Positions 9,088-63,516 of a stretch of 64,000 nucleotides of DNA are shown here, one piece after another. Made by a program: the position numbers and the translations under genes. Numbering within the stretch: the first letter of the stretch is position 1; every line of letters begins with the position of its first letter. The stretch is from positions 62,001 to 126,000 of the forward strand of contig NZ_AUAX01000017.1 in assembly GCF_000428945.1 (NCBI RefSeq), in the 5' to 3' direction. The notes under the pieces were generated by a model. The model worked only from the letters and a program-made list of their open reading frames with translations, was not told where the DNA came from and made no database searches. The stretch comes from Hamadaea tsunoensis DSM 44101. Its GTDB lineage: Bacteria > Actinomycetota > Actinomycetes > Mycobacteriales > Micromonosporaceae.

Positions 9088-9161
9088 TCCGGGGTACGGC
9101 GCTGGCGTCCGTGACCGCGCTTTGAACGCGGAACCCGTGGGTTCGATTCCCGCACCCGGAG
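9088..9161 (+). tRNA. tRNA-Gln (TTG), somewhat degenerate
   Basis: Anticodon stem ccgcg/cgcgg with loop ctTTGaa, T-arm gtggg-ttcgatt-cccgc. The acceptor (tccgggg/acccgga) has one mismatch and the D-stem is weak. Confidence 0.8.
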
Positions 9162-9165
9162 CCGC

Positions 9166-9239
9166 GTCGCGGTAGCCCAACCGGCAGAGGCGCGGAGCTC
9201 AAACCTCCGTCGTTGCGGGTTCGAGTCCCGCCCGCGACA
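9166..9239 (+). tRNA. tRNA-Leu anticodon (CAA) with short variable loop
   Basis: Acceptor gtcgcgg/ccgcgac is perfect, anticodon stem cggag/ctccg with loop ctCAAac, T-stem gcggg/cccgc. The variable region is only about 4-5 nt, whereas bacterial leucine tRNAs normally carry a long variable arm. Anticodon-based identity is therefore provisional. Confidence 0.8.
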
Positions 9240-9260
9240 CGCATCCGACCAAATGAACAT

Positions 9261-9329
9261 GGGCGACGCACAGGTGTGCAGCGCTGCCTTGCAAGCAGCG
9301 CGGGCGCGGTTCGATACCGCGGTTGTCCA
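9261..9329 (+). tRNA. tRNA-Ala (TGC), reduced D-arm
   Basis: Anticodon stem gctgc/gcagc with loop ctTGCaa, T-arm cgcgg-ttcgata-ccgcg, acceptor gggcgac/gttgtcc with wobble pairs. The D-arm is short (gcac-aggt-gtgc). CCA is encoded at the 3' end, unlike most of the array. Confidence 0.78.
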
Positions 9330-9333
9330 CCAA

Positions 9334-9407
9334 GCCCGGGTAGCCCAACTGGTAGAGGCGCCTCGCTTAGAACGAGGAGGGTGGGGGTTCGAATCCCTCG
9401 CCGGGTA
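9334..9407 (+). tRNA. tRNA-Leu anticodon (TAG) with short variable loop
   Basis: Anticodon stem cctcg/cgagg with loop ctTAGaa and T-arm ggggg-ttcgaat-ccctc. The variable loop is about 5 nt rather than a leucine-type long arm. The acceptor has a wobble pair and one mismatch. Second class-I-shaped Leu anticodon in the array. Confidence 0.78.
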
Positions 9408-9418
9408 CGCAGCAAGAT

Positions 9419-9493
9419 GCTTCGTCGGTCCAGTCTGGAGTGGACACCGCCTTGTCACGGCGGAGAGCACGGGTTCGAATCCCGTACGAGGCG
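9419..9493 (+). tRNA. tRNA-Asp (GTC)
   Basis: Acceptor gcttcgt/acgaggc, D-stem gtcc/ggac, anticodon stem ccgcc/ggcgg with loop ttGTCac, T-stem acggg/cccgt. Confidence 0.88.
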
Positions 9494-9514
9494 CGCAGAA
9501 AGTTTCCACATCAT

Positions 9515-9588
9515 GCCCTCGTAGCTCAGCGGATCAGAGTGTCTGGCTACGAACCAGAAGGCCGCAGGTTCGAATCCTGCCGAGGGCA
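9515..9588 (+). tRNA. tRNA-Arg (ACG)
   Basis: Perfect acceptor gccctcg/cgagggc, anticodon stem tctgg/ccaga with loop ctACGaa, T-stem gcagg/cctgc. Confidence 0.9.
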
Positions 9589-9596
9589 CGCATCGG

Positions 9597-9670
9597 GCGC
9601 CGGTTCCCCCAGTCGGTGGGGCAGCTGACCCAAGGTCAGGTGGTGGTGGGTTCGACTCCCGCCCGGCGCG
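9597..9670 (+). tRNA. tRNA, identity unresolved (possible CAA anticodon)
   Basis: Acceptor gcgccgg/ccggcgc is perfect, D-stem cccc/gggg and T-arm gtggg-ttcgact-cccgc are clear. The anticodon arm folds only as a 4-bp stem ctga/tcag with loop cccaagg, lacking the usual U33. It may be a pseudo-tRNA. Confidence 0.55.
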
Positions 9671-9672
9671 CT

Positions 9673-9746
9673 CGCGGGATGGCGCAGTCAGGAAGCGCGT
9701 CTGGCTCATAACCAGAAGGACCGGAGTTCGAATCTCCGTCCCGCTC
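9673..9746 (+). tRNA. tRNA-Met (CAT), or Ile2
   Basis: Anticodon stem tctgg/ccaga with loop ctCATaa, T-arm cggag-ttcgaat-ctccg, acceptor cgcggga/tcccgct with an unpaired first base. The anticodon stem lacks the three G:C pairs of an initiator. Elongator Met or lysidine-modified Ile2 cannot be separated by eye. Confidence 0.82.
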
Positions 9747-13028: not shown

Positions 13029-14381
13029 ATGAAGCGACGCTTGCTGGGCAGAACGCTCATCCTGGCCATGACTGCCGGGGTGGCGCTGTCGGCCGCCGCG
13101 TGCGGCGGCAAGGAGCCGGAGGCCGCGTCCGGCCCCGTCACGATCACCGTCAACGGCCTGCCGCCGGCCACCGAGACGGTCAACCGGGCGAACTTCGAGG
13201 CCGACGTCCAGGCGTTCGAGGCCAAGAACCCGAACATCAAGATCAAGGCGAACGAGGGGTTCATGGACCCGAAGACGTTCGCCGCGAAGATCGCCGGCGG
13301 CCAGCTGGAGGACGTCTTCTACGTCTACTTCACCGACCCGCAGTCGCTGATCGCCAAGCGCCAGGTCACCGACATCTCGGCGTACCTCAAGGACTTTCCG
13401 AACACCAAGGACGTCAACCCCGACCTGATGAAGGTGTTCACCGGTTCGGACGGCAAGGTCTACGGCCTGCCGTCGGCGAACTACTCCCTCGGCCTGGTCT
13501 ACAACCGCACCCTGTTCACCAAGGCCGGCCTGGATCCCAACAGCCCGCCCAAGACGTGGGCCGAGGTCCGCGACGCGGCCAAGAAGATCGCCGCGCTCGG
13601 CGACGGGATCGCCGGCTACGGCGACTACAGCAAGTCCAACACCGGCGGCTGGCACTTCACCGCCGAGACGTACTCGCTGGGCGGCGACATCGCCACCAAG
13701 GACGGCGACACCTGGAAGGCCGCGTTCAACAGCGACCAGGGCCGCCAGGTCCTGCAGCAGCTGCACGACATGCGGTTCGTCGACGACACCATGGGCCAGC
13801 GCCAGCTGCTGGAGTACGCCGACCTGCTGCAGATGATGGCCGCCGGCAAGCTCGGCATGTACGTCGGTTCGCCGGACAACATCCCCACCATCGTGCGCCA
13901 GTACAAGGGCAAGTACGAGGACTACGGCCTGGGCGCGATCCCGGACGGCAAGGCGACCCTCGGCGGCGGCGACGGCTTCATGTTCAAGGCGGGCCTGAGC
14001 CCGGAGAAGATCAAGGCCGGCCTGACCTGGCTGAGCTGGAAGACGGTCAACCCGGACCGGATCGCCACCGACAACGAGAAGGCGTCCCAGCGCGGCGAGC
14101 CCGTCGGCCTGCCGCAGCCGAACATCTGGACCGGCGCGGCCGCGCAGACCTGGGCCGACGCCACCAAGAAGTACGCCAACGTGCCGTCGGAGAACTTCGC
14201 CCCGTTCGCGACCGGCAGCGCCGCCATCCCGCTGAAGCTGGAGCCGCCGGAGGCGCAGAAGGTCTACGCGGTCCTCGACACCGCGATGCAGAAGGTCCTC
14301 ACCGACCCCAACGCCAACGTCGACCAGCTGCTCGGTGACGCCGAGAAGCAGGTCAACCAGATCCTGTCCGCGGTCAAGTGA
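13029..14381 (+). CDS. Sugar ABC transporter substrate-binding lipoprotein
   Basis: Extracellular solute-binding protein family 1, 450 residues. It begins MKRRLLGRTLILAMTAG with a lipobox ending in AAAC near residue 24, so it should be lipid-anchored outside the membrane. Typical binding-protein blocks are FEAKNPNIKIKANEGF, YGLPSANYSLGLVYNRTLF and WAEVRDAAKKIA. The ATG at 13029 is chosen because the signal peptide starts there and AAGGA lies upstream. It is followed by two permease genes and no ATPase, as in actinobacterial systems that share a common MsiK-type ATPase. Context suggests alpha-glucan oligosaccharides as ligand. Confidence 0.92.
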   Translation: MKRRLLGRTLILAMTAGVALSAAACGGKEPEAASGPVTITVNGLPPATETVNRANFEADVQAFEAKNPNIKIKANEGFMDPKTFAAKIAGGQLEDVFYVYFTDPQSLIAKRQVTDISAYLKDFPNTKDVNPDLMKVFTGSDGKVYGLPSANYSLGLVYNRTLFTKAGLDPNSPPKTWAEVRDAAKKIAALGDGIAGYGDYSKSNTGGWHFTAETYSLGGDIATKDGDTWKAAFNSDQGRQVLQQLHDMRFVDDTMGQRQLLEYADLLQMMAAGKLGMYVGSPDNIPTIVRQYKGKYEDYGLGAIPDGKATLGGGDGFMFKAGLSPEKIKAGLTWLSWKTVNPDRIATDNEKASQRGEPVGLPQPNIWTGAAAQTWADATKKYANVPSENFAPFATGSAAIPLKLEPPEAQKVYAVLDTAMQKVLTDPNANVDQLLGDAEKQVNQILSAVK

Positions 14382-14440
14382 CCCCCTGCCGGTCCCGGGC
14401 GCACGACGGCCCGGGACCGGCCTCCCCGAGGAGGTTTGCC

Positions 14441-15379
14441 ATGACCACGCTCGCGCCGAGCGTCTCCGAGCTCGCGCCGCCGCCGGCGCGTACCCGCGCG
14501 GCCGGTCGACTGCGCCGGCGGATCGCCGACAACCTGCAGGCGTACGCGTTCCTGTCGGTCGGACTGGTCTGCTTCGCCCTGTTCTCGTGGTATCCGCTGG
14601 TCAAGGGCATCATCCTGTCGTTCCAGCAGGACAACTTCGTCACCGACCCGGAGTGGGTCGGGCTGGACAACTACCGGGCGGTCCTCGACGACCCGCTGTT
14701 TCTCACCGCGTGGAAGAACACGTTCGAGTTCACCGGGCTCGCGCTGCTGTTCGGGTTCGCGGTGCCGTTCGTCATCGCGCTGGTGGTCAACGAGTTCCGG
14801 CACGCCAAGGGCTTCTTCCGGTTCGCGGTCTACCTGCCGGTCATGCTGCCGCCGATCGTGAGCGTGCTGCTGTGGCGGTTCTTCTACGACCCCGGTTCCG
14901 GCCTGTTCAACGCGGTGCTGTCGGGGGTGGGCCTGCCGACCTCGGACTGGACCCAGTCGCCGAAGATGGCGATGATCTCGCTCGTCCTGGTGGCGACCTG
15001 GGCGAACATGGGCGGCGCCACGATCATGTACCTGGCCGGGCTGGCCACCATCCCCGGTGAGCTGTACGAGGCCGCCGAGCTCGACGGCGCCTCGGTGTGG
15101 CAGCGCATCCGCCACGTGACCCTGCCGCAGATGCGCTTCGTCCTGCTGATCCTGCTGCTGTTGCAGGTGATCGCGACGATGCAGGTCTTCATCGAGCCCT
15201 ACCAGCTCACCGGCACCACCAATCCCGACACGATCACCGTCATGATCCTCATCTACCGGTACGCGTTCACGGTCAACAACGACTTCGGCATGGCGGCCGC
15301 GATGAGCGTGCTGCTGTTCGTGGTGCTGGCCGCGTTCTCCGCGCTGTACGTGCGGCTGACCCGGAAGGCCGACGCATGA
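14441..15379 (+). CDS. Sugar ABC transporter permease (MalF-like)
   Basis: 312-residue membrane protein with about six helices after a basic cytoplasmic N-terminus (RLRRRIADNLQAY). The ABC-permease EAA loop reads YEAAELDGASVWQRIRHVTLPQM near residue 210 and couples to the ATPase. The start is set at 14441 behind GAGGAGG. Its stop overlaps the next permease start (ATGA). It imports the sugar delivered by the upstream binding protein. Confidence 0.92.
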   Translation: MTTLAPSVSELAPPPARTRAAGRLRRRIADNLQAYAFLSVGLVCFALFSWYPLVKGIILSFQQDNFVTDPEWVGLDNYRAVLDDPLFLTAWKNTFEFTGLALLFGFAVPFVIALVVNEFRHAKGFFRFAVYLPVMLPPIVSVLLWRFFYDPGSGLFNAVLSGVGLPTSDWTQSPKMAMISLVLVATWANMGGATIMYLAGLATIPGELYEAAELDGASVWQRIRHVTLPQMRFVLLILLLLQVIATMQVFIEPYQLTGTTNPDTITVMILIYRYAFTVNNDFGMAAAMSVLLFVVLAAFSALYVRLTRKADA

Positions 15380-55166: not shown

Positions 55167-57998
55167 TCAGCTCGGGGGCAGGCTCAGCCCCTTGGCGATC
55201 GCGATGATCAGGTGGCTCACGTAGTCGACGCGTACGGTGCCGCTGGTCAGGGATGCCCGGACGCCGCCGATCTGCCGGTCCGGGTCGCTGAGGCAGGGCG
55301 CGTCGGCCGGTCGCAGGATCAGCCGGCGGCACAATCGCATCGCCTCGCGCCACGACCGGGCGTACCGGACCGCGCGGTCGGTGTCACCGGTCGCGATCGC
55401 CAGCCGGGCCGCGTCGGCGACCGCCTCGGCGACGAACGCCGTGTGGAAGCCCGGCCCGTCCGGCGACAGGTCGGTGAGGAACGCCCCGGTCGCCTCGGAC
55501 TGCCAGTCGAGGGCCCAGTCGGCGACCTCGAACGCCGCGCCGGCGTACCGCGGGTCGCCGGTCGCGTCCCAGAGCGCCGCGCCCGCCTGCGGCAGCCACC
55601 CCGCCTGCCCCCACCGCCGCACCCGGCGGAACCGGGCCAGCTGCGCGTCGAACACCCGGGCACAGCGCCGTGCCGTCGCACCGGGCAGCGGCTGCCGGAA
55701 GCGCGCGAGCGCCAGAACCACCGCGCTCGGCAGGTAGTCGTTGTCGCGCTCCAGGCGTACCGGCTGGCCGTCGGGGTGGACCGAGCCGTCGTCGCGGATC
55801 AGGCTCTCGACCCGGTCGGCCAGCGCCGCGAGCCGCTCCGGCGCCGCGTCCCGCAGCCCGGCGTCGCTCACCGCCGCGAGCAGCTCGCTGTCACCCATCG
55901 GGCCGCCGCGGTGGCCGGCCAACCTGACCGTCACCGGGGCGTCGTCGCTGATTCCCGCCATCGCCGTACGCAGACCGCCGCGCGCCAGCTCCGTCCAGCC
56001 GGACCGGTCCGACAGCCGGCCGGCGGTGTCCAACCCGGACAGTCCGTGGATCTCCCGCGCGGTGCTGCCCTCGGTCCATCGCCAGCCGGGCACGGGCGTC
56101 TGCGCGTACAGGGGAAGGCCGGTGTCGTCGATCGTGGCCGCCAGGTACCCGCCCAGCAGGAGAAGGTCCTCGCGCAGCTCGGCGTCGCCCGGCTCGCCCG
56201 GCGGTTCGGCGAAACCGAACTGGTGGCTCACGGTCCCGCCGGGGCCGCCCAGCCACGTCGCGGTCCGGTACGTCGTCCAGTCGGCCGGCCCGTCACCGGC
56301 ACCGGCCTTCGCCAGCAGCCGCTCGACGACCTTCGGCTTCGTCCAGTCGTAGTGCGGGCCGACCGACTCCAGCAGGATCGCCTGATGCCCGCCCTGCGCG
56401 ACCGCGATGCTGTCGCGACCCAGCCGCATCTTGCGGGCCGCGTACGCGGGCGTCGCCGACCGCAGCCGCTCGGGATCGAACAGCACCGACACGCAGACGC
56501 TGAGGTCTGCGGGGTCCGGCCGCCGGTCGGTGAACCGCCGATCGCCCAGCGCGGCGGTCGCGGCGGCCACCACCGCCTCGTCCAGCTCCGCCCGATGACT
56601 GACCGCGCACCCGACGACGCCCTGCCGGTAGAGGGTGATCCCGACCCCGCTGACCGGCACCGGAACGAGACCGTCCACGCGTACGCCGGATGTCGGCACC
56701 GGATGACCGGCCAGCAGCGCGCGAACGACCTCGACGGCCCGGGCGGTCAGCGCCTCGCCGACGGCGGGGGAGCGGGTCCAGGCGTGCCCGGGACCGTCGG
56801 GGACGCCGTACGGCAGCCAGTCGCCGCCCGGCTCGGGATACTTGCGCACGTCATGCCGATAGAGGTCGTACGGTTCGTGCTCGGCCAGCCGGGCGTTGCG
56901 CAACGCCAGGTCGAGCTGCTCCCGGTCGCTGGTGAAGACCTGGGTGTTGGGCAGCGCGCCGCCGAGCTTGACCGGCCAGGCCCGGCTCTGCACGAGCAGC
57001 CCGTAGCGGGCGAAGTCGACGCCGCCGGGCGTGATGCGCTCCAGCGGGCCGAAGAAGGTGACCGCCAGCTTCAACCGGTCGAGGTCGGCCCGGGTGAGCC
57101 CGCCGTTGCGCACCGTCTTCGCGGTCGCCAGCACGACGTCGCGGGCCGGGTCGGCGTCGGCCGGCTCGAAATGCCAGAACCCGTCCCGCGCCGGACGAGT
57201 GTCCGTCGCCCGATCCCGGAACGACACCCACGTCCCGCCCCCGGCCTCGTACGCTTTGTCCAAAGTGGCCGGTGGCGTCAGCAGCTCGCCGGAGTCCAGC
57301 AGGCGCTCGGCCACCACGCGGGCGAGCACGGCGGGCGCGAGCCCCTCCGGTGCCGCGGCGCCGGCCGCCGGGAAGTCGCCGACCCGCCGGAACCCGGGCA
57401 CGTAGATCGGCTGCGCCATGCCGAGATCGGCCCACACGTCGAAGAGCGTCTCGACGCGGTAGCCGAGCGCCTCGGCGCGCTCGCGGCCGCCCCGATGCGG
57501 AAAATGCACCAGGCAGATCGTGCCCTCCACGGTGAAGCCCTGCTGCTCCAGGACCCGGGCGCCGCTCAGGAACGACCGGCCGGAGCTGAGCGAGTCGTCG
57601 ATGAGGACCACCGGCCGGGACGGATCCGCGACCCCCTCGATCTGCCGCCCGCCCGGTCCGCCCTTGGGCTCCGGGCGTACGCAGATGCCGGTATACCGGC
57701 CGCCGCCGAGCAGTACGCACGCCGTGACCAGCGGAATGCCGGTCGTGCCGAAAGTGGCCAACTGCGTACTGTCGAATCCGGACAGTGCGGCCAGCAGGTT
57801 CTCCCCGGCCAGCCGGGCGCCGTCGGCGGTGAGCGAGACGCCCCACGAATAGAACATCCACGGCGCGGTCTCGCCGCGGCGGTCCACGACCGGCTGTCCC
57901 GGACCCGCCCACAGGATGCCGTCCTGGCGCAGCAGCTCCCGCAACCGCGAGCGGACGTCCGGCGGCGCGACGACCGGTCGTACGAACCCGACCGTCAC
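55167..57998 (-). CDS. PRTase - double AMMECR1-like - helical-barrel fusion protein
   Basis: 943-residue cytoplasmic protein with no close family that I recognise as a whole. Residues 20-200 form an orotate-PRTase-like phosphoribosyltransferase with the PRPP motif VVLIDDSLSSGRS at about 130-142. Residues about 250-385 and 410-580 each follow the AMMECR1 pattern (GTWVSFR...FFGPLE; GVGITLYRQGVVGCAVSH...RRFTDRR...CVSVLFDPE), the second keeping the conserved Gly-Cys (C464). Residues about 610-943 look like an alpha/alpha toroid of glycan-active enzymes (RWGQAGWLPQAGAALWDATGD, WALDWQSEATGAF). The GTG start overlaps the stop of the PEX-repeat gene (GTGA), so the two are translationally coupled. Domain calls are by eye; overall reaction unknown. 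Confidence 0.78.
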   Translation of the reverse strand: MTVGFVRPVVAPPDVRSRLRELLRQDGILWAGPGQPVVDRRGETAPWMFYSWGVSLTADGARLAGENLLAALSGFDSTQLATFGTTGIPLVTACVLLGGGRYTGICVRPEPKGGPGGRQIEGVADPSRPVVLIDDSLSSGRSFLSGARVLEQQGFTVEGTICLVHFPHRGGRERAEALGYRVETLFDVWADLGMAQPIYVPGFRRVGDFPAAGAAAPEGLAPAVLARVVAERLLDSGELLTPPATLDKAYEAGGGTWVSFRDRATDTRPARDGFWHFEPADADPARDVVLATAKTVRNGGLTRADLDRLKLAVTFFGPLERITPGGVDFARYGLLVQSRAWPVKLGGALPNTQVFTSDREQLDLALRNARLAEHEPYDLYRHDVRKYPEPGGDWLPYGVPDGPGHAWTRSPAVGEALTARAVEVVRALLAGHPVPTSGVRVDGLVPVPVSGVGITLYRQGVVGCAVSHRAELDEAVVAAATAALGDRRFTDRRPDPADLSVCVSVLFDPERLRSATPAYAARKMRLGRDSIAVAQGGHQAILLESVGPHYDWTKPKVVERLLAKAGAGDGPADWTTYRTATWLGGPGGTVSHQFGFAEPPGEPGDAELREDLLLLGGYLAATIDDTGLPLYAQTPVPGWRWTEGSTAREIHGLSGLDTAGRLSDRSGWTELARGGLRTAMAGISDDAPVTVRLAGHRGGPMGDSELLAAVSDAGLRDAAPERLAALADRVESLIRDDGSVHPDGQPVRLERDNDYLPSAVVLALARFRQPLPGATARRCARVFDAQLARFRRVRRWGQAGWLPQAGAALWDATGDPRYAGAAFEVADWALDWQSEATGAFLTDLSPDGPGFHTAFVAEAVADAARLAIATGDTDRAVRYARSWREAMRLCRRLILRPADAPCLSDPDRQIGGVRASLTSGTVRVDYVSHLIIAIAKGLSLPPS

Positions 57999-58696
57999 TG
58001 AGCGATCTCCGGTCGCTCCGGGAACTCCGGAAGTTCAGGCCGTTCGGGAAGCTCCGGCCGCTCGGGAAGTTCGGGCCGCTCCGGAAGCTCCGGCCGCTCG
58101 GGGCGTTCCGGGAACTCCGGCCGTTCCGGTAGCTCGGGCCGCTCGGGGAACTCGGGTCGTTCCGGTAGCTCGGGTCGTTCCGGAAGCTCGGGCCGCTCGG
58201 GGAACTCGGGACGTTCAGGCCGCTCGGGGAACTCCGGGAACTCCGGGCGTTCGGGCCGCTCGGGGAATTCCGGCCGTTCGGGCCGTTCCGGGAACTCCGG
58301 CTGCTCGGGTCGCTCGGGGAATTCCGGACGCTCAGGCCGCTCCGGGAACTCCGGACGCTCTGGGAACTCGGGACGCTCTGGAAACTCGGGGAGCTCCGGG
58401 CGTTCGGGCCGCTCGGGGAACTCCGGGAACTCCGGCCGTTCCGGGCGTTCGGGCCGCTCGGGGAACTCGGGGAACTCCGGGCGTTCCGGTCGTTCGGGGA
58501 GCTCGGGAAGCTCGGGTCGCTCGGGGGACTCCGGGCGTTCCGGCTGCTCGGGAAGTTCGGGTTGTTCGGGCTGCTCCGGTTGCTCGGGGAGCTCCGGAAG
58601 TTCGGGCTGTTCCGCCAATTCCGGCTGTTCGGGAAACTCCGGGAGCTCCGGGCGTTCGGGCTCCTCGGCGAGTCTTCCCTGGACCTCGTTCATCAT
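57995..58696 (-). CDS. Pro-Glu-X triplet-repeat protein (about 70 PEX units)
   Basis: 233 residues. After a nine-residue leader (MMNEVQGRL) the protein is almost entirely Pro-Glu-X triplets, X being Arg, Phe, Leu or Gln, with single Ser, Ala and Ile exceptions, ending PEIAQ. There is no signal peptide or membrane segment. A strong GGAGG lies 7 bases before the ATG. A very long, acidic, proline-rich extended polymer is predicted. It is not a chance frame: it has a ribosome site, a stop coupled to the next start, and the repeat phase is kept over 690 bp. It could be a scaffold, a binding polymer or a substrate modified on Glu or Arg by its operon partner. The DNA repeat also leaves open frames on the other strand, which are shadows. 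Confidence 0.85.
   Translation of the reverse strand: MMNEVQGRLAEEPERPELPEFPEQPELAEQPELPELPEQPEQPEQPELPEQPERPESPERPELPELPERPERPEFPEFPERPERPERPEFPEFPERPERPELPEFPERPEFPERPEFPERPERPEFPERPEQPEFPERPERPEFPERPERPEFPEFPERPERPEFPERPELPERPELPERPEFPERPELPERPEFPERPERPELPERPELPERPELPERPELPEFPERPEIAQ
58004..58660. repeat. Long 9/18-bp imperfect tandem repeat (PEX coding)
   Basis: Nine-base units such as gggaactcc, gggcgttcg and ggccgctcg recur through the gene with silent third-base variation, which argues that the encoded triplets, not only the DNA, are maintained. Confidence 0.8.
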
Positions 58697-58830
58697 GGTG
58701 CACCTCCACCATCGGTCCCCGGATCAGGGTAAGTGCGGAGAGGCGCTCCGAAACAGACTATTGACCAGGTCAAGTACGTGTACTACCTGCCGCGTCCCGG
58801 GACGGCGGTACCGGTTCGGGCCGGGCCGAC

Positions 58831-59493
58831 TCAGACCAGGCCGTGCTCGTACGCGAACACGACGATCTGCACCCGGTCGCGCAGTGCCAGCTTGCGCAGG
58901 ATGGCGCCCACGTGGGTCTTGACCGTGGACTCGCTGGCGAACACGCTGCCGGCGATCTCCGCGTTCGACAGGCCGCGGGCCACGGCGGTGAAGACCTCGC
59001 GCTCCTTGTCCGTCAGGCCCAGGAACGCCGGCGGAGGTGCCGCCTCGGCCTCGAACTGCCGGTCCAGCAGGGTCGCGAGGTCCTGGGGCGCGAGAACCGC
59101 GTTGCCGCCGTGCACGGTACGGATCGCGTCGCGCAGCATCAGCGGCGTGGTGTCCTTGAGCAGGAAGCCGCTGGCGCCGTGCCGGATCGCGGTCGCCGCC
59201 CGGTCGTCGAGGTTGAACGTGGTCAGCACGATGACGCGGACGGGCTTGGCGCGCCGGGCGATCCGTTCGGGGGCGAAGATCTGCCGGGACGCCTCGACGC
59301 CGTCCATCTCCGGCATCCGGATGTCCATCAGGACGACGTCCGGCCGCAGCTCCTCGACCAGGCGTACCGCCTCGATGCCGTTGCCGGCCGCGCCGATCAC
59401 CCGCATGCCGTCCTGCGCGTCGATGATGACGCGTACGCCTTCGCGGAAGAGCTCCTGATCGTCGACGAGCAGGACGCTGATCTCGTCGCCCAT
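58831..59493 (-). CDS. NarL/LuxR-type response regulator
   Basis: 220 residues: receiver domain (SVLLVDDQELFREGV with acidic pair, phospho-Asp in VLMDIRMPEMDG near residue 57, Lys in LLKDTT) and C-terminal LuxR helix-turn-helix (LTDKEREVFTAVARGLSNAEIAGSVFASESTVKTH). Its ATG shares one base with the kinase TGA. Output of the Van-like operon's two-component system; note that classical VanR is OmpR-type, so this is a different signalling family. Confidence 0.93.
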   Translation of the reverse strand: MGDEISVLLVDDQELFREGVRVIIDAQDGMRVIGAAGNGIEAVRLVEELRPDVVLMDIRMPEMDGVEASRQIFAPERIARRAKPVRVIVLTTFNLDDRAATAIRHGASGFLLKDTTPLMLRDAIRTVHGGNAVLAPQDLATLLDRQFEAEAAPPPAFLGLTDKEREVFTAVARGLSNAEIAGSVFASESTVKTHVGAILRKLALRDRVQIVVFAYEHGLV

Positions 59494-60764
59494 CACGAAC
59501 CGCCCAGCAACGGCAGGTACGCCGTCACCGTGAAGGTGGTGCCGGCTGCCTGCTCCCGGCTGCGTACGTCGAGGTGGCCGTTGATCGTTTCGAGGCGGCG
59601 GCGCATGCCCTCCAGACCGCGTCCCGCGCCGGAACCGGAGCCGTCGGCCGCCCGGGTGTTGGTGACCTCGATCCGCAGCGTGTCGGCGAAGCCGCCGCCC
59701 GCGGGACCGGACGGCCAGTGCCGCTCGGCGGTGATGGGCTGGTCGCGCCGGCCGTGCTTGATCGCGTTGGTGAGCATCTCCTGCAGCACCCGGTACGCCA
59801 CGGTCGCGGTCTCGCGGGGCAGCGCCCGGGGCGTGCCGAGCTCGGTCGCGATGATCTGGTGCCCGCTGCCGCGTACGCCCTCGATGAGGCCGTCCAGCTG
59901 GCCGGCGTCGCCGGTCTCCGGGGCCGTGTCCTGGGTCGTGGAGAGCACCTGGCGTACGTCCTGCAGGGACGAGCGGGCCGAGATGGCGATCGTGCGCAGG
60001 GTCTTCTTCAGCCTCTCGTTCTCGTCCAGGTACTGGCCGGACTCGGCCTGCGCCAGGATGACCGCGAGCGAGTGGCCGACGACGTCGTGGACGTCGCGGG
60101 CCAGGCGGGTCTGCTGATCGCGCAGCTGCGCGATCTCCCGGGCGTGCTCGGTCGCGCGGCGGGCGCCGGCGGCGTCCTCCTCGGCGGCCAGCATCGCCGC
60201 CCGCGAGTCGGTGGCCCGTTCGAGGAAGCGCATCACGAGCCCGGCCGGCCAGGGAGCGGCGACGGCCAGCAACCCGACCAGCGACAGGACGAGCTGCACG
60301 GTCGGATGCAGGCTGAGGATCCCGCCGAGCTTCGATCCGCCCAGCAGGAGCTGCAGGGTGAGGACGCGCCCCTCGTGCATGAAGAACGCGACGACCACCG
60401 CCAGCGGCACGGAGACCGCGCTCATCACGACGGTCGGCGGCCGGCCCCACCGCGCGCCGCCGAAGAACACCGCGGTCAGCGCGAACTCGGCGACCATGAT
60501 CGGCGCGTCGAGCGTCACGTGGTAGAGGCCCAGCCCCCACACCAGCGCGAGGGCGACGCCGGGCGCCCGCCGGCAGAGGCCGACCGCGAGCGCGACCACC
60601 AGGGCCTGCGCGACGCCCTCGAACGCCAGGCGGTTGGCGAACATCAGGCCGTCCGGGGCGGCGAACACCGTGGCGGTGAGGAACGTCTCGGTGAGGCCGA
60701 CGGCGAGCACCAGGAAGGCCGCGACCGCCTCCGGCAGCCAGGGGCGCCAGCCCGTCTCGCTCAT
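59493..60764 (-). CDS. NarL-type sensor histidine kinase
   Basis: About 423 residues from ATG 60764, behind AGGA. Five to six N-terminal helices form the sensor (short loops only, so it senses in or at the membrane). A HisKA_3 domain follows with phospho-His in LARDVHDVVGHSLAVIL, then an ATPase domain (LQEMLTNAIKHG as N box, GRGLEGMRRRLETINGHLDV as G box). It pairs with the downstream response regulator. Membrane-sensing kinases of this shape often respond to cell-envelope stress. Confidence 0.9.
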   Translation of the reverse strand: MSETGWRPWLPEAVAAFLVLAVGLTETFLTATVFAAPDGLMFANRLAFEGVAQALVVALAVGLCRRAPGVALALVWGLGLYHVTLDAPIMVAEFALTAVFFGGARWGRPPTVVMSAVSVPLAVVVAFFMHEGRVLTLQLLLGGSKLGGILSLHPTVQLVLSLVGLLAVAAPWPAGLVMRFLERATDSRAAMLAAEEDAAGARRATEHAREIAQLRDQQTRLARDVHDVVGHSLAVILAQAESGQYLDENERLKKTLRTIAISARSSLQDVRQVLSTTQDTAPETGDAGQLDGLIEGVRGSGHQIIATELGTPRALPRETATVAYRVLQEMLTNAIKHGRRDQPITAERHWPSGPAGGGFADTLRIEVTNTRAADGSGSGAGRGLEGMRRRLETINGHLDVRSREQAAGTTFTVTAYLPLLGGS

Positions 60765-60854
60765 CCGATCATCCTGTTTCGAGGGGAAATGCCGAGGCAA
60801 GGGAATCATCTTCGCGGCCCGCCCGGCAATACGGGTGACGATCGCCACGCGGGA

Positions 60855-61802
60855 TCAGGGCCGCAGCGCATCGCGTACGAGGAGGTCGAGCAGGGCTCCG
60901 AAGGGCGTTCCGGCCGCGGCGAACATCCTGGGCACCTGCGAGTGCGCGGTGAAGCCGGGCGTCGTGTTCACCTCGTTGAGGACCGGGCCGTCGCCGGTCA
61001 CGAAGAAGTCGACCCGGGCGACCCCGGCACAGCCCAGGGCGTCGTACATGCCCACCGCCGCCTGTTCGAGCTCCTTGCGGGCCACCTCGTCCAGCGGGGC
61101 GGGGACGACGAACTCCGGCGCGCCGTACTTGGCCGCGTGATCGAAGATCTCCCCTTCGCGTACGCGGATCTCCAGGGCCGGCGCCACGATCCGGGATCCG
61201 TCGGGGCGGCCCAGGACGGCCACGTCGATCTCGCGGCCGATCACGAGATCCTCGACCAGCACCCGGTCGTCGTGGGCGAACGCGGACTCCAGGGCCGGGC
61301 CGAGCGCGGCGGCCTCGCGTACCAGGGTCACTCCGTGGCTGGAGCCGGCGGCGACCGGTTTGACGACGACCGGGTGCGTGTACGCGTACACGTGCATGGT
61401 GGCGCGGGTGAGCAGCCGCGCGGGTGCGGTGGCGATGGCGAGCGCGCCGGCGACGAGCTTGGTGGCCCATTTGTCCATCGCCAGCGCGCCGGCGCCCAGC
61501 GGCGAGCCGACCCACGGCACCTCGGCGAGGTCGCAGAGGGCGGCCAGGGTGCCGTCCTCGCCGTGCGGGCCGTGCAGGACCGGGAAGGCCACCGCGCAGG
61601 AACGCAGGACGTGGACCGCCCCGGCCAGGCCGATCGGGCGGTCCTCCGCGTCACGCCACATGCCGGCGGGATCGATGGTGAGCGGGACGGCGTGATAGCC
61701 CGCCTCCCTGAGGCCCTGGCCCACGGCGGCCGCCGAGGCGAGCGAGACGTCGTGCTCGCAGTTGCGGCCGCCGCCGATCACGGCGACGCGGGTGCTGTTC
61801 AT
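60855..61802 (-). CDS. ddl: D-alanine-D-alanine ligase family (second Ddl)
   Basis: 315-residue ATP-grasp ligase joining D-Ala to D-Ala or another D-amino acid. Motifs: RVAVIGGGRNCEHDVSLASA at the N-terminus, HGPHGEDGTLAAL, SPLGAGALAMDKWATKLV, KPVAAGSSHGVTLV and the metal/product site NEVNTTPGFTAHS. The omega-loop region has AAKY, which favours D-Ala/D-Ser type rather than the D-lactate (VanA) type. It is clearly shorter than usual Ddl (about 340-360) in the middle. The start overlaps the racemase stop (ATGA). Likely an accessory ligase for altered precursors. Confidence 0.87.
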   Translation of the reverse strand: MNSTRVAVIGGGRNCEHDVSLASAAAVGQGLREAGYHAVPLTIDPAGMWRDAEDRPIGLAGAVHVLRSCAVAFPVLHGPHGEDGTLAALCDLAEVPWVGSPLGAGALAMDKWATKLVAGALAIATAPARLLTRATMHVYAYTHPVVVKPVAAGSSHGVTLVREAAALGPALESAFAHDDRVLVEDLVIGREIDVAVLGRPDGSRIVAPALEIRVREGEIFDHAAKYGAPEFVVPAPLDEVARKELEQAAVGMYDALGCAGVARVDFFVTGDGPVLNEVNTTPGFTAHSQVPRMFAAAGTPFGALLDLLVRDALRP

Positions 61803-62908
61803 GAGGAACTCCTTCGGTGCAGCCGGGCGCTGAGGCCCGTGACGATCTCGTGTTCGAGGGTTTCGGCCCAGCCGGCCCAGTCCGCCGTGGTGGGCTCGCC
61901 GCACGAGCCCGGGCCGAAAACGGTGACGTGGTCGCCGACGGCCGCGGCCGTGTCCGGTCCCAGATCGACGACGGTCATGTCCATCGAGATCCGGCCGGCG
62001 ACCGGGCGGCGGACACCGCCGACCCACACTTCGGCCCGGCCTGAGGCCAGCCGGGGCAGCCCGTCGGCGTACCCGACCGGGATCAGACCCAGCCGGGTCG
62101 CCCGGCGGGCCGTCCAGGTGTGCCCGTAGCCGACCGGCGTACCGGCCGGGACGCGGCGGACGGTCACCAGTGGAGCGGTCAGCGTCAGCGCGGGCCGCAG
62201 CCGCACGGTCCCCGACTCGTCGATGCCCACCAGGCCCGCGCCGATCCGGCTCATGGTGTGGTGCGACAGCGGATCGCTCAGCGTGGCGGCCGTCGCGGCG
62301 AGATGGCGGTCGACCGGGCGCAGCCCCGCGGCTTCGGCCACCCGCAGCCCCCAGGCGAACCGGTCGCGGCCCCGCGCGTTGGCCGGATGGCCAGGCCGGT
62401 CGGCGCACGGCAGGTGCCCCATGACGCCGACCACGCGGACGAGGCCCAGCTGCTCGGCCACCCGGGCGTCCCGGCAGAGCTGGTCCCATTCGGCGGGCTC
62501 GGCGCCGTCGCGGCCCATGCCGGTGTCCAGTTGCAGGTGGATCCGGGCACCCGGCGCGGTCCGGGCGACGGCGTGCAGATGTTCGAGCCCCGGAACCCCC
62601 AGCTCCAGGCCGAGCCCCACCGCCGCGGCGAAGTCGGCGTCGAGCGCGTTGAGCCAGCTGAGAACGGGCACGGTCAGGCCGCCGGCCCGCAGCGGCCGGG
62701 CCTCGTCGATGCTCGTCACCCCCAGCCGGGTCGCGCCGCCGGCCAGGGCGGCCCGCGCGACGTCGAGCTGGCCGTGGCCGAAACCGTCGGCCTTGACCAC
62801 CGCCATCACCTCGCCCCGCGTGCGGGCCCGGATGGTACGCACGTTGGCGGTGACCGCGTCCAGGTCGACCTGCAGGGTCGCCTGAGGCCGCAGCGCCAGC
62901 AGGTTCAC
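61799..62908 (-). CDS. alr: Alanine racemase (PLP)
   Basis: 369 residues from GTG 62908. Fold-type III racemase with PLP-Lys in [10 protein letters not shown] near residue 36, the substrate-side region [12 protein letters not shown], the catalytic Tyr in [10 protein letters not shown] and [11 protein letters not shown] near the C-terminus. It makes D-Ala (or D-Ser) for the adjacent ligase. Overlaps the dipeptidase gene by GTGA and the ligase gene by ATGA. Confidence 0.92.
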
Positions 62909-63516
62909 GGGACCACCGGACCGTAATGGGCGGCGCCGGCCCCGGTGGCCAGCGCCCAGTACCGGTCGCCGAACGAGTAGTGCCACCACTCGGTGGGATA
63001 GTTGACCAGCCCTTCGCCCTCCAGCACCCGCGCGAGCAGATCCCGGTTGGCCCGTGCCTCGCGGCTGATCCCGTCGGCGGCGAAGTAGCAGCGGCCGCCG
63101 GACTGCTCCGGCGTGGCGTCGATCGGAGTGCCCAGATCGAGTTCCCGGCCGGACTCCTCGACCAGGGTCACGTCGACGGCGGCCCCCGCCACGTGCGGCG
63201 CCACCGCCAGCGGAGCGACGAACCGGCTGGTGAGCACGTGCAGCTCCGCCTCGCCGACGCCGGGCCGGTCGGCACGGATCTCGGTCGCGTACCGCTCGAT
63301 GATCTCCTGCTGCCGGTACGCCGTCCGGAAGCCCTCCACCACCCGCAGGCCGACTCCCGCCGGCAGGGCGGCCTGAGCTGCCTCCAACCGACGGGCCAGC
63401 TCCGCGCGTACCAGGATCTGACCGGGTCCGATGGCGGGATCGAGGACGACCAGGGGTTCATCGACGGCACGGACGGGGACGGCGGAAACCCTCGGGTCCG
63501 ACAGCAGGATGGGCAT
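62905..63516 (-). CDS. VanX-like D-alanyl-D-alanine dipeptidase (M15D)
   Basis: 203-residue cytoplasmic zinc peptidase. Zinc and catalytic motif PHVAGAAVD (His and Asp seven apart) and [13 protein letters not shown] (catalytic Glu and third zinc His) match Van[12 protein letters not shown] is the family's N-terminal block. It would hydrolyse D-Ala-D-Ala, preventing normal precursor from dominating. First gene of a five-gene operon with racemase, ligase, kinase and regulator; divergent from murF. Confidence 0.9.

Follow-up and report, generated by a model that had tools for sequence, protein, structure and literature searches.

A rare fusion enzyme, apparently undescribed, is paired with acidic repeat proteins in Hamadaea tsunoensis and distant bacteria

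Introduction

What does a bacterium do with a protein built almost wholly of Pro-Glu-X triplets, and what is the role of the multidomain enzyme encoded directly behind it? Both genes lie in a 64,000-nucleotide stretch of the Hamadaea tsunoensis DSM 44101 genome (contig NZ_AUAX01000017.1, positions 62,001 to 126,000), referred to here as the window. One open reading frame (ORF), which we call PEX after its triplets, overlaps a gene for a fusion of a phosphoribosyltransferase (PRTase) domain, two AMMECR1-like domains and an (alpha/alpha)6 toroid. The fusion is a real and rare enzyme that seems not to have been described; acidic repeat proteins accompany it, and enzyme and repeat protein probably form a peptide-modifying pair of a new kind. 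Conservation of AMMECR1 extends from bacteria to humans, and we know of no established chemistry for it. A natural fusion of AMMECR1 with an enzyme of the phosphoribosyl pyrophosphate (PRPP) type, beside a defined peptide, gives a direct handle on that chemistry.

Results

The fusion recurs beside acidic repeat proteins

Full-length copies of the fusion occur at four loci: the window, L001 (genome G354), L036 (G789) and L037 (G773). At three of these four, in two phyla, an acidic triplet-repeat ORF lies within 1.5 kb of the fusion, and repetitive ORFs are found near it at all four. Because the PEX protein is unspecific as a query (a plain search matched 170 of 354 host-family genomes at E 1e-6 and 17 of 148 genomes in another phylum), we adopted a strict acidic-triplet score, defined as the best run of triplets with +1 for Asp or Glu in the middle position and -2 otherwise, stops being forbidden and the threshold set at 14. 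The window scored 74, L001 26, L037 20 and L036 9. Controls were 37 loci matched over the PRTase part only, taken from the host-phylum sample and the class of genome G355 and covering 123 kb (up to ~1.5 kb on each side); none of them reached 14, and the maximum was 5.

Could a low-complexity ORF have come to lie next to a rare enzyme by chance, with coincidence at the other loci too? The difference between 0 of 37 controls and three of four fusion loci argues against this, as does the silent-only variation of the Pro and Glu codons described below, and we consider chance very improbable in spite of the breadth of the plain PEX search and of five PEX-matched loci that reach 14 with no known fusion. 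Two of these, L071 and L082, come from 19 further host-family loci, and L047, L054 and L059 from the other phylum, the score having been run on top-ranking matches only. Their runs are X-Glu-Arg in L047, L054, L059 and L071 and Pro-Glu-His in L082 (host family), so such arrays exist elsewhere. For the sample of four loci, the pairing of the fusion with acidic repeat proteins is well supported. The pair recurs, and it does so inside a wider association with peptide-modifying enzymes. A preliminary description of the window, made from its letters, had linked a repeat ORF to the fusion, and that link extends to distant genomes. Homologues lacking any adjacent repeat ORF, which it had named as evidence against the link, were not seen among the four full-length loci if one accepts, at L036, a graspetide-type precursor two genes away.

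The fusion enzyme is rare. It was found in the host's own genome (1/1), in one of four genomes of the genus and in one of 354 genomes of the family, each time the host itself. Matches were present in 28 of 296 genomes of the host-phylum sample, full length only in the window; the partial ones covered the PRTase part only (25), the toroid (1) or the first AMMECR1-like domain (1). The genomes of L001 and of a truncated fifth homologue, L002, both matched (2/2), as did 3 of 149 genomes in the phylum of G354, which is that of the metagenome-assembled genome (MAG) FK4.bin95. L002 belongs to G355, an alphaproteobacterial MAG in which a C-terminal piece of the fusion is cut by the contig edge. Its order gave 4 matches in 43 genomes (1 fragment, 3 toroid-only), its class sample 17 in 239 (the G355 fragment, 4 toroid-only, 12 PRTase-only) and its phylum sample 1 in 398, itself. 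A contig scan by exact peptide patterns, a method of low sensitivity, recovered 2 relatives among 16 candidate stretches. Searches by tblastn with protein P0001 against 72,556 plasmid records and with P0003 against 50,697 phage records returned no match, and no relative turned up when viral contigs were scanned with short peptide patterns; on these results we rejected a phage or plasmid gene.

The Pro and Glu of the PEX array are under purifying selection

Both ORFs are present as the preliminary description had reported them (Table 1), including the strong ribosome site, and its count of about 70 triplets becomes 72. The GTGA overlap would couple translation of the fusion to that of PEX.

Table 1. 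Features of the PEX ORF and the fusion gene, in window positions (position 1 is the first letter of the window).
Feature	Position	Strand	Details
PEX repeat ORF	57995..58696	(-)	233 aa, net charge -43; Lys, Thr, Asp and Cys all 0, Ser 1
Array of 72 Pro-Glu-X units	58004..58660	(-)	residues 13-231; tandem arrays in DNA
GGAGG ribosome-binding sequence	58703..58707	(-)	ATG start 6 nt after; read from DNA
GTGA overlap	57995..57998	(-)	stop of PEX ORF and GTG start of fusion gene
Fusion enzyme gene	55167..57998	(-)	943 aa; three full-length homologues, 43, 38 and 33% identity
Orotate-PRTase-type domain	57399..57941	(-)	residues ~20-200; PRPP motif VVLIDDSLSSGRS, loop R-x-E-x-K...EG resembling orotate PRTase (OPRT)
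First AMMECR1-like domain	56781..57281	(-)	residues ~240-406; LPN motif invariant 4/4
Second AMMECR1 domain	56244..56711	(-)	residues ~430-585; Gly463-Cys464 invariant 4/4
(alpha/alpha)6 toroid domain	55170..56216	(-)	residues 595-943 (C-terminal 349); AlphaFold model

The array is regular, with Pro-Glu units spaced by exactly 3 residues in 70 of 71 cases, and it leaves only 12 residues on its N-terminal and 2 on its C-terminal side. The X position is taken by Arg (32), Phe (17), Leu (15), Gln (6), Ser (1) and Ile (1). The 72 nine-base units comprise 33 distinct nine-mers; the first two bases of every Pro and Glu codon are constant (0/288 sites vary), while 62 of the 144 third positions deviate from the commonest base. 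A Fisher test for such silent-only variation gives p 5e-35, an overstated value because the units duplicate and hence are not independent. Purifying selection acts on the Pro and Glu of PEX, and X varies freely between Arg, Phe, Leu and Gln; the selection on the peptide that had been proposed is thus seen for Pro and Glu and not for X. The DNA of the array looks old, and it looks selected as protein. A promoter scan found no promoter. In the 9.5-Mb host genome, the window PEX was the sole match at E 1e-3 (150 of 310 candidates scored).

Domains of the fusion enzyme

The PRTase, paired AMMECR1-like domains and helical barrel named in the preliminary description are all recognisable, the first AMMECR1-like domain being weak and below the Pfam cut-off. 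In the PRTase domain, the NCBIfam model pyrE TIGR00336 matches residues 55-185 (E 8.5e-9), with 35.4 bits falling below its cut-off of 106.8, and all three fusion proteins scanned with NCBIfam score below the PyrE family cut-off. A profile built from four sequences matched the Protein Data Bank (PDB) entries 2p1z (2e-15) and 2wns, an OPRT (1.2e-14). As read from their alignment, four fusions keep the R-x-E-x-K loop and largely keep the PRPP motif. The domain resembles PyrE in motif, loop pattern and profile match, and differs from it in being fused to three other domains.

The second AMMECR1 domain is clear: Pfam PF01871 matches residues 462-574 (E 1.2e-15; 57.9 bits for the protein, gathering cut-off 25), and PDB entry 1vaj matches at E 7.5e-11. 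The first is far more divergent. PF01871 matches it at E 9.4e-4 in the window and 1.2e-4 in one relative (19.2 and 22.1 bits, below the gathering cut-off of 25) and gave no match in two other relatives; its profile found no PDB chain at E 5, and profile comparisons with the second domain (E 0.47) and with a short-form protein (E 0.46) were not significant. A two-sequence profile of the whole fusion did match, through columns 228-398 only, a protein that we interpret as MEMO-AMMECR1, with E 4.5e-11. Conserved cysteines had been reported for both domains; the second has one (Cys464, 4/4), and the first lacks an invariant Cys and keeps LPN in all four proteins. As LPN lies in one domain and Cys in the other, the two may share a single site. 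An AMMECR1 domain with a conserved Gly-Cys is common to the fusion and to the AMMECR1/AmmeMemoRadiSam proteins, but the fusion has two copies, both divergent. Inspection by eye of the ORFs around the loci revealed neither a MEMO nor a radical SAM gene; the whole genomes were not searched for them.

AlphaFold performed poorly on the full fusion with two sequences (predicted local distance difference test, pLDDT, 44.3). For the toroid with nine sequences, the model had a pLDDT of 88.9 and a predicted template modelling score (pTM) of 0.91. Foldseek matched this model to glycoside hydrolase (GH) family 105 enzymes, GH76 mannanases, cellobiose 2-epimerases, AprG and others, which places the predicted toroid in a fold class rich in sugar enzymes and agrees with the glycan-enzyme-like barrel first described. 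Among the 50 chains listed, E ranged from 1.3e-5 to 4.9e-4 and the template modelling score to the query from 0.54 to 0.70. The fold is thus held in common with GH76 mannanase, GH105, AGE/cellobiose 2-epimerase and AprG, but with only 8-15% identity. A sequence profile of the toroid against the PDB gave nothing convincing, the best being a phycobiliprotein subunit (E 0.0086), with an unsaturated glucuronyl hydrolase at 0.15. The polar residues Asp827, His852, Glu858, Arg914, Arg923, Asp925 and His929 are conserved in the toroid alignment, which suggests a working site. Pfam recognised no methyltransferase or dehydratase domain in the fusion.

Relatives lie beside enzymes of modified ribosomal peptides

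The strongest clue to function is the company kept by relatives of the fusion, which lie beside enzymes of ribosomally synthesized and post-translationally modified peptides (RiPPs), of the graspetide type at L036 and of the borosin type with LanB at L002. The gene order at L036 is precursor P0007, ATP-grasp, fusion, on one strand throughout. P0007 (229 aa) contains PFFEGFLEGQ, TMAYPSDSDAD twice and GIEAPEP in eight copies; it matches NF033738, the microviridin family, with 32 bits against a cut-off of 26, and scores 19.0 bits with Pfam Inhibitor_I10, slightly below the cut-off of 21. The ATP-grasp protein carries the MvdD pre-ATP-grasp domain PF21068 (44.6 bits against a cut-off of 27), and its best NCBIfam match is TIGR04185, MvdC (E 1.1e-48, below the equivalog cut-off). 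A relative of the L001 methyltransferase (38% identity, 4e-79) also adjoins the L036 fusion. At L002, the next gene after the truncated homologue matches the N-methyltransferases dbOphM (1.8e-29) and SonM (1.7e-27), both of the borosin type, and is followed by LanB (PF04738, 2.3e-19). No triplet array was found in the 3.9 kb covered at L002 (score 3), the upstream side lying off the contig. With such neighbours, the fusion is a possible new marker for genome mining.

At L001, a zinc-ribbon methyltransferase gene, divergent from the fusion, stands between it and the PEX ORF, which lies downstream of the methyltransferase gene and is truncated by the contig start (units such as EAPELPETPEF). A second G354 contig ends in an array with the same units; the two pieces may be one gene or two. 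They hold 5 and 7 copies of EAPE, which is the core of the L036 repeat GIEAPEP, and the C-terminal array of G354 has no Arg and no Lys. At L037, an ORF of Asp triplets (TDI, VDR, PDI, RDI, KDI) runs on the same strand and stops 15 bp ahead of the fusion.

Two further genes at these loci deserve mention. Upstream of the Asp-repeat ORF of L037, a 191-aa protein (9153-9728, (-)) resembles, in our impression, a YkuD-type L,D-transpeptidase that lacks the catalytic Cys; it had no Pfam or NCBIfam match. At L036, a protein with a PEKPETPEKPEKPQKPEK tail is encoded 4.8 kb upstream of the fusion (13788-14486, (-)).

Comparison with known systems

Repetitive precursors are known among graspetides (PMC8939145, PMC13097080), where corallotide is a repeat-core form (PMC13097080), and split borosins have been described for SonM/SonA (PMC8429565). 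The resemblance to graspetides such as microviridin and plesiocin comes from L036, with its microviridin-family precursor and MvdC/MvdD-like ATP-grasp by the fusion. A graspetide core, however, combines acidic donors with Thr, Ser or Lys acceptors, and the window PEX has no Thr, no Lys and one Ser in 233 residues, so the usual ester or amide crosslinks are impossible along the array. Class I lanthipeptides need Ser, Thr or Cys in the core, and PEX offers that one Ser, with Thr and Cys both at 0. The borosin-type alpha-N-methyltransferase and LanB that follow the fusion at L002 recall split borosins and class I lanthipeptides, but neither was found in the window. By the features tested, namely tblastn with one query for each enzyme and composition, we rejected the window chain as a graspetide, borosin or lanthipeptide. 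A known anti-phage defence system was likewise rejected, as none of 5 proteins matched a PADLOC-DB family at E 0.01.

The preliminary description knew of no system with these parts, and among the matches listed in the open-licence literature we also found no paper that combines them; AMMECR1 together with phosphoribosyltransferase returned only unrelated papers there. A word search of PMC8939145, PMC13097080 and PMC8429565 found no AMMECR1 and no phosphoribosyl enzyme.

Discussion

How might the two proteins work together? We lean, if only slightly, towards PEX and the fusion as a RiPP-type pair of enzyme and dedicated substrate, in which the fusion would modify the acidic chain along its length. 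The gene arrangement, with a repeat ORF that overlaps the putative modifying enzyme, fits that type. The repetitive chain would be a precursor or polymer, and the PRTase domain would take PRPP as donor. PRPP-dependent glycosylation, perhaps on Glu or Asp carboxylates, would precede processing by the toroid; the AMMECR1 pair, with the Cys coming from one domain and LPN from the other, would hold or further modify the adduct, and the epimerase/GH-like toroid would process the sugar or thread the chain. The product could be a heavily decorated, stiff polyanionic rod.

The argument for the acceptor is one of shared composition. The triplet arrays have only Pro and a carboxylate in common, and the sole side-chain nucleophile shared by the PEX, PET/PEL and XDI/XDR arrays is the Glu/Asp carboxylate, which favours a carboxylate (or the backbone) over Arg as the target. 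The G354 C-terminal array without Arg or Lys and the window array without Thr or Lys leave the same two as common possible targets. A more specific version, in which the PRTase domain puts (phospho)ribose on the regularly spaced carboxylates and the AMMECR1 pair and toroid rearrange or trim the sugar to yield a glyco-polyanion rod, would be a new class of peptide modification; taken in full detail it is speculative, and we think it improbable. Trp and His biosynthesis both have a PRTase step followed by an isomerase, and a toroid resembling aldose-ketose isomerases after a PRTase recalls that logic, as a suggestion rather than evidence.

If the enzyme-substrate reading is true, a PRPP-dependent enzyme would join the toolbox of ribosomal-peptide modification, together with a repetitive, designable substrate of ~70 near-identical sites; ribosylation, if true, would give the AMMECR1 domain its first chemical context.

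Several observations weigh against a dedicated enzyme-substrate pair, besides the arrays noted above in genomes where no fusion was found. Four full-length copies are a small number, and one of them, L036, has in place of a triplet array a graspetide-type precursor, which lies two genes from the fusion. At L001, the repeat ORF is encoded on the strand opposite to that of the fusion. No leader motif is recognisable in the window PEX protein, and the 'DPFFNP' of the G354 PEX protein has no clear fit to the leader pattern published in PMC8939145. The G773 fusion has an altered PRPP motif, DESMTFGGS. The RiPP-type neighbour enzymes vary from locus to locus, and in the window tblastn at E 0.1, with one query each, found no homologue of the graspetide ligase (P0006), the L002 borosin methyltransferase or the L002 LanB; the neighbour-type methyltransferase gave only two weak matches, at E 1.8e-4 and 0.005. 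The acceptor argument, finally, is drawn from composition alone.

Some of these points fit a different account, in which PEX stays unmodified and serves to organise the enzyme or bring it to a surface, be it as scaffold, as chaperone or as charged spacer, and the fusion makes or salvages a small molecule of the nucleotide or sugar type. The PRTase and the epimerase/GH-like toroid are small-molecule enzyme folds, and a PEX without evident leader, in a window where tblastn found none of the three RiPP enzymes, would suit such a role. A microviridin-type precursor and MvdC/MvdD-like ligase directly upstream of one homologue (L036), and a peptide N-methyltransferase and LanB directly downstream of another (L002), speak against it, and we hold it to be unlikely.

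The variety of neighbours, together with the freely varying X residues, could also mean that the fusion tailors several RiPP classes, PEX being a leader-like docking polymer or a repeat-core precursor whose real site lies elsewhere, at the termini or at X. The 12 and 2 residues flanking the array are too short for a core, and this account seems to us distinctly unlikely.

Other genes around the loci

Directly upstream of the PEX gene, the window holds a van-type set (58831-63516, (-)), with a LuxR-type response regulator, a HisKA_3 kinase, a D-Ala-D-Ala-ligase-like gene, an alanine racemase and an M15 D-Ala-D-Ala dipeptidase in a row. That the PEX/fusion pair is a component of this set was rejected, since the ORF lists of L001, L036 and L037, read by eye, showed no van genes.

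The toroid also occurs outside the fusion. Shorter alphaproteobacterial proteins (~530-700 aa) at L043, L044, L045, L103 and L105 join an unrecognised N-terminal part, which in L043 had no Pfam match, to a fusion-type toroid. At these five loci, where both sides are present, a long Gly-Asp repeat protein is near (5/5); at a sixth, L104, which is cut near the gene on one side, no Gly-Asp repeat protein was found in 9 kb. The six are not independent because all are of one class. A gene read as mannose-6-phosphate-isomerase-like is also nearby at L103 and L105, and a polysaccharide role is therefore possible. At L016 (G618), a toroid fragment at the contig edge (169-1137, (-)) precedes, on the same strand, a repeat protein rich in Gly, Asp, Glu and Ser.

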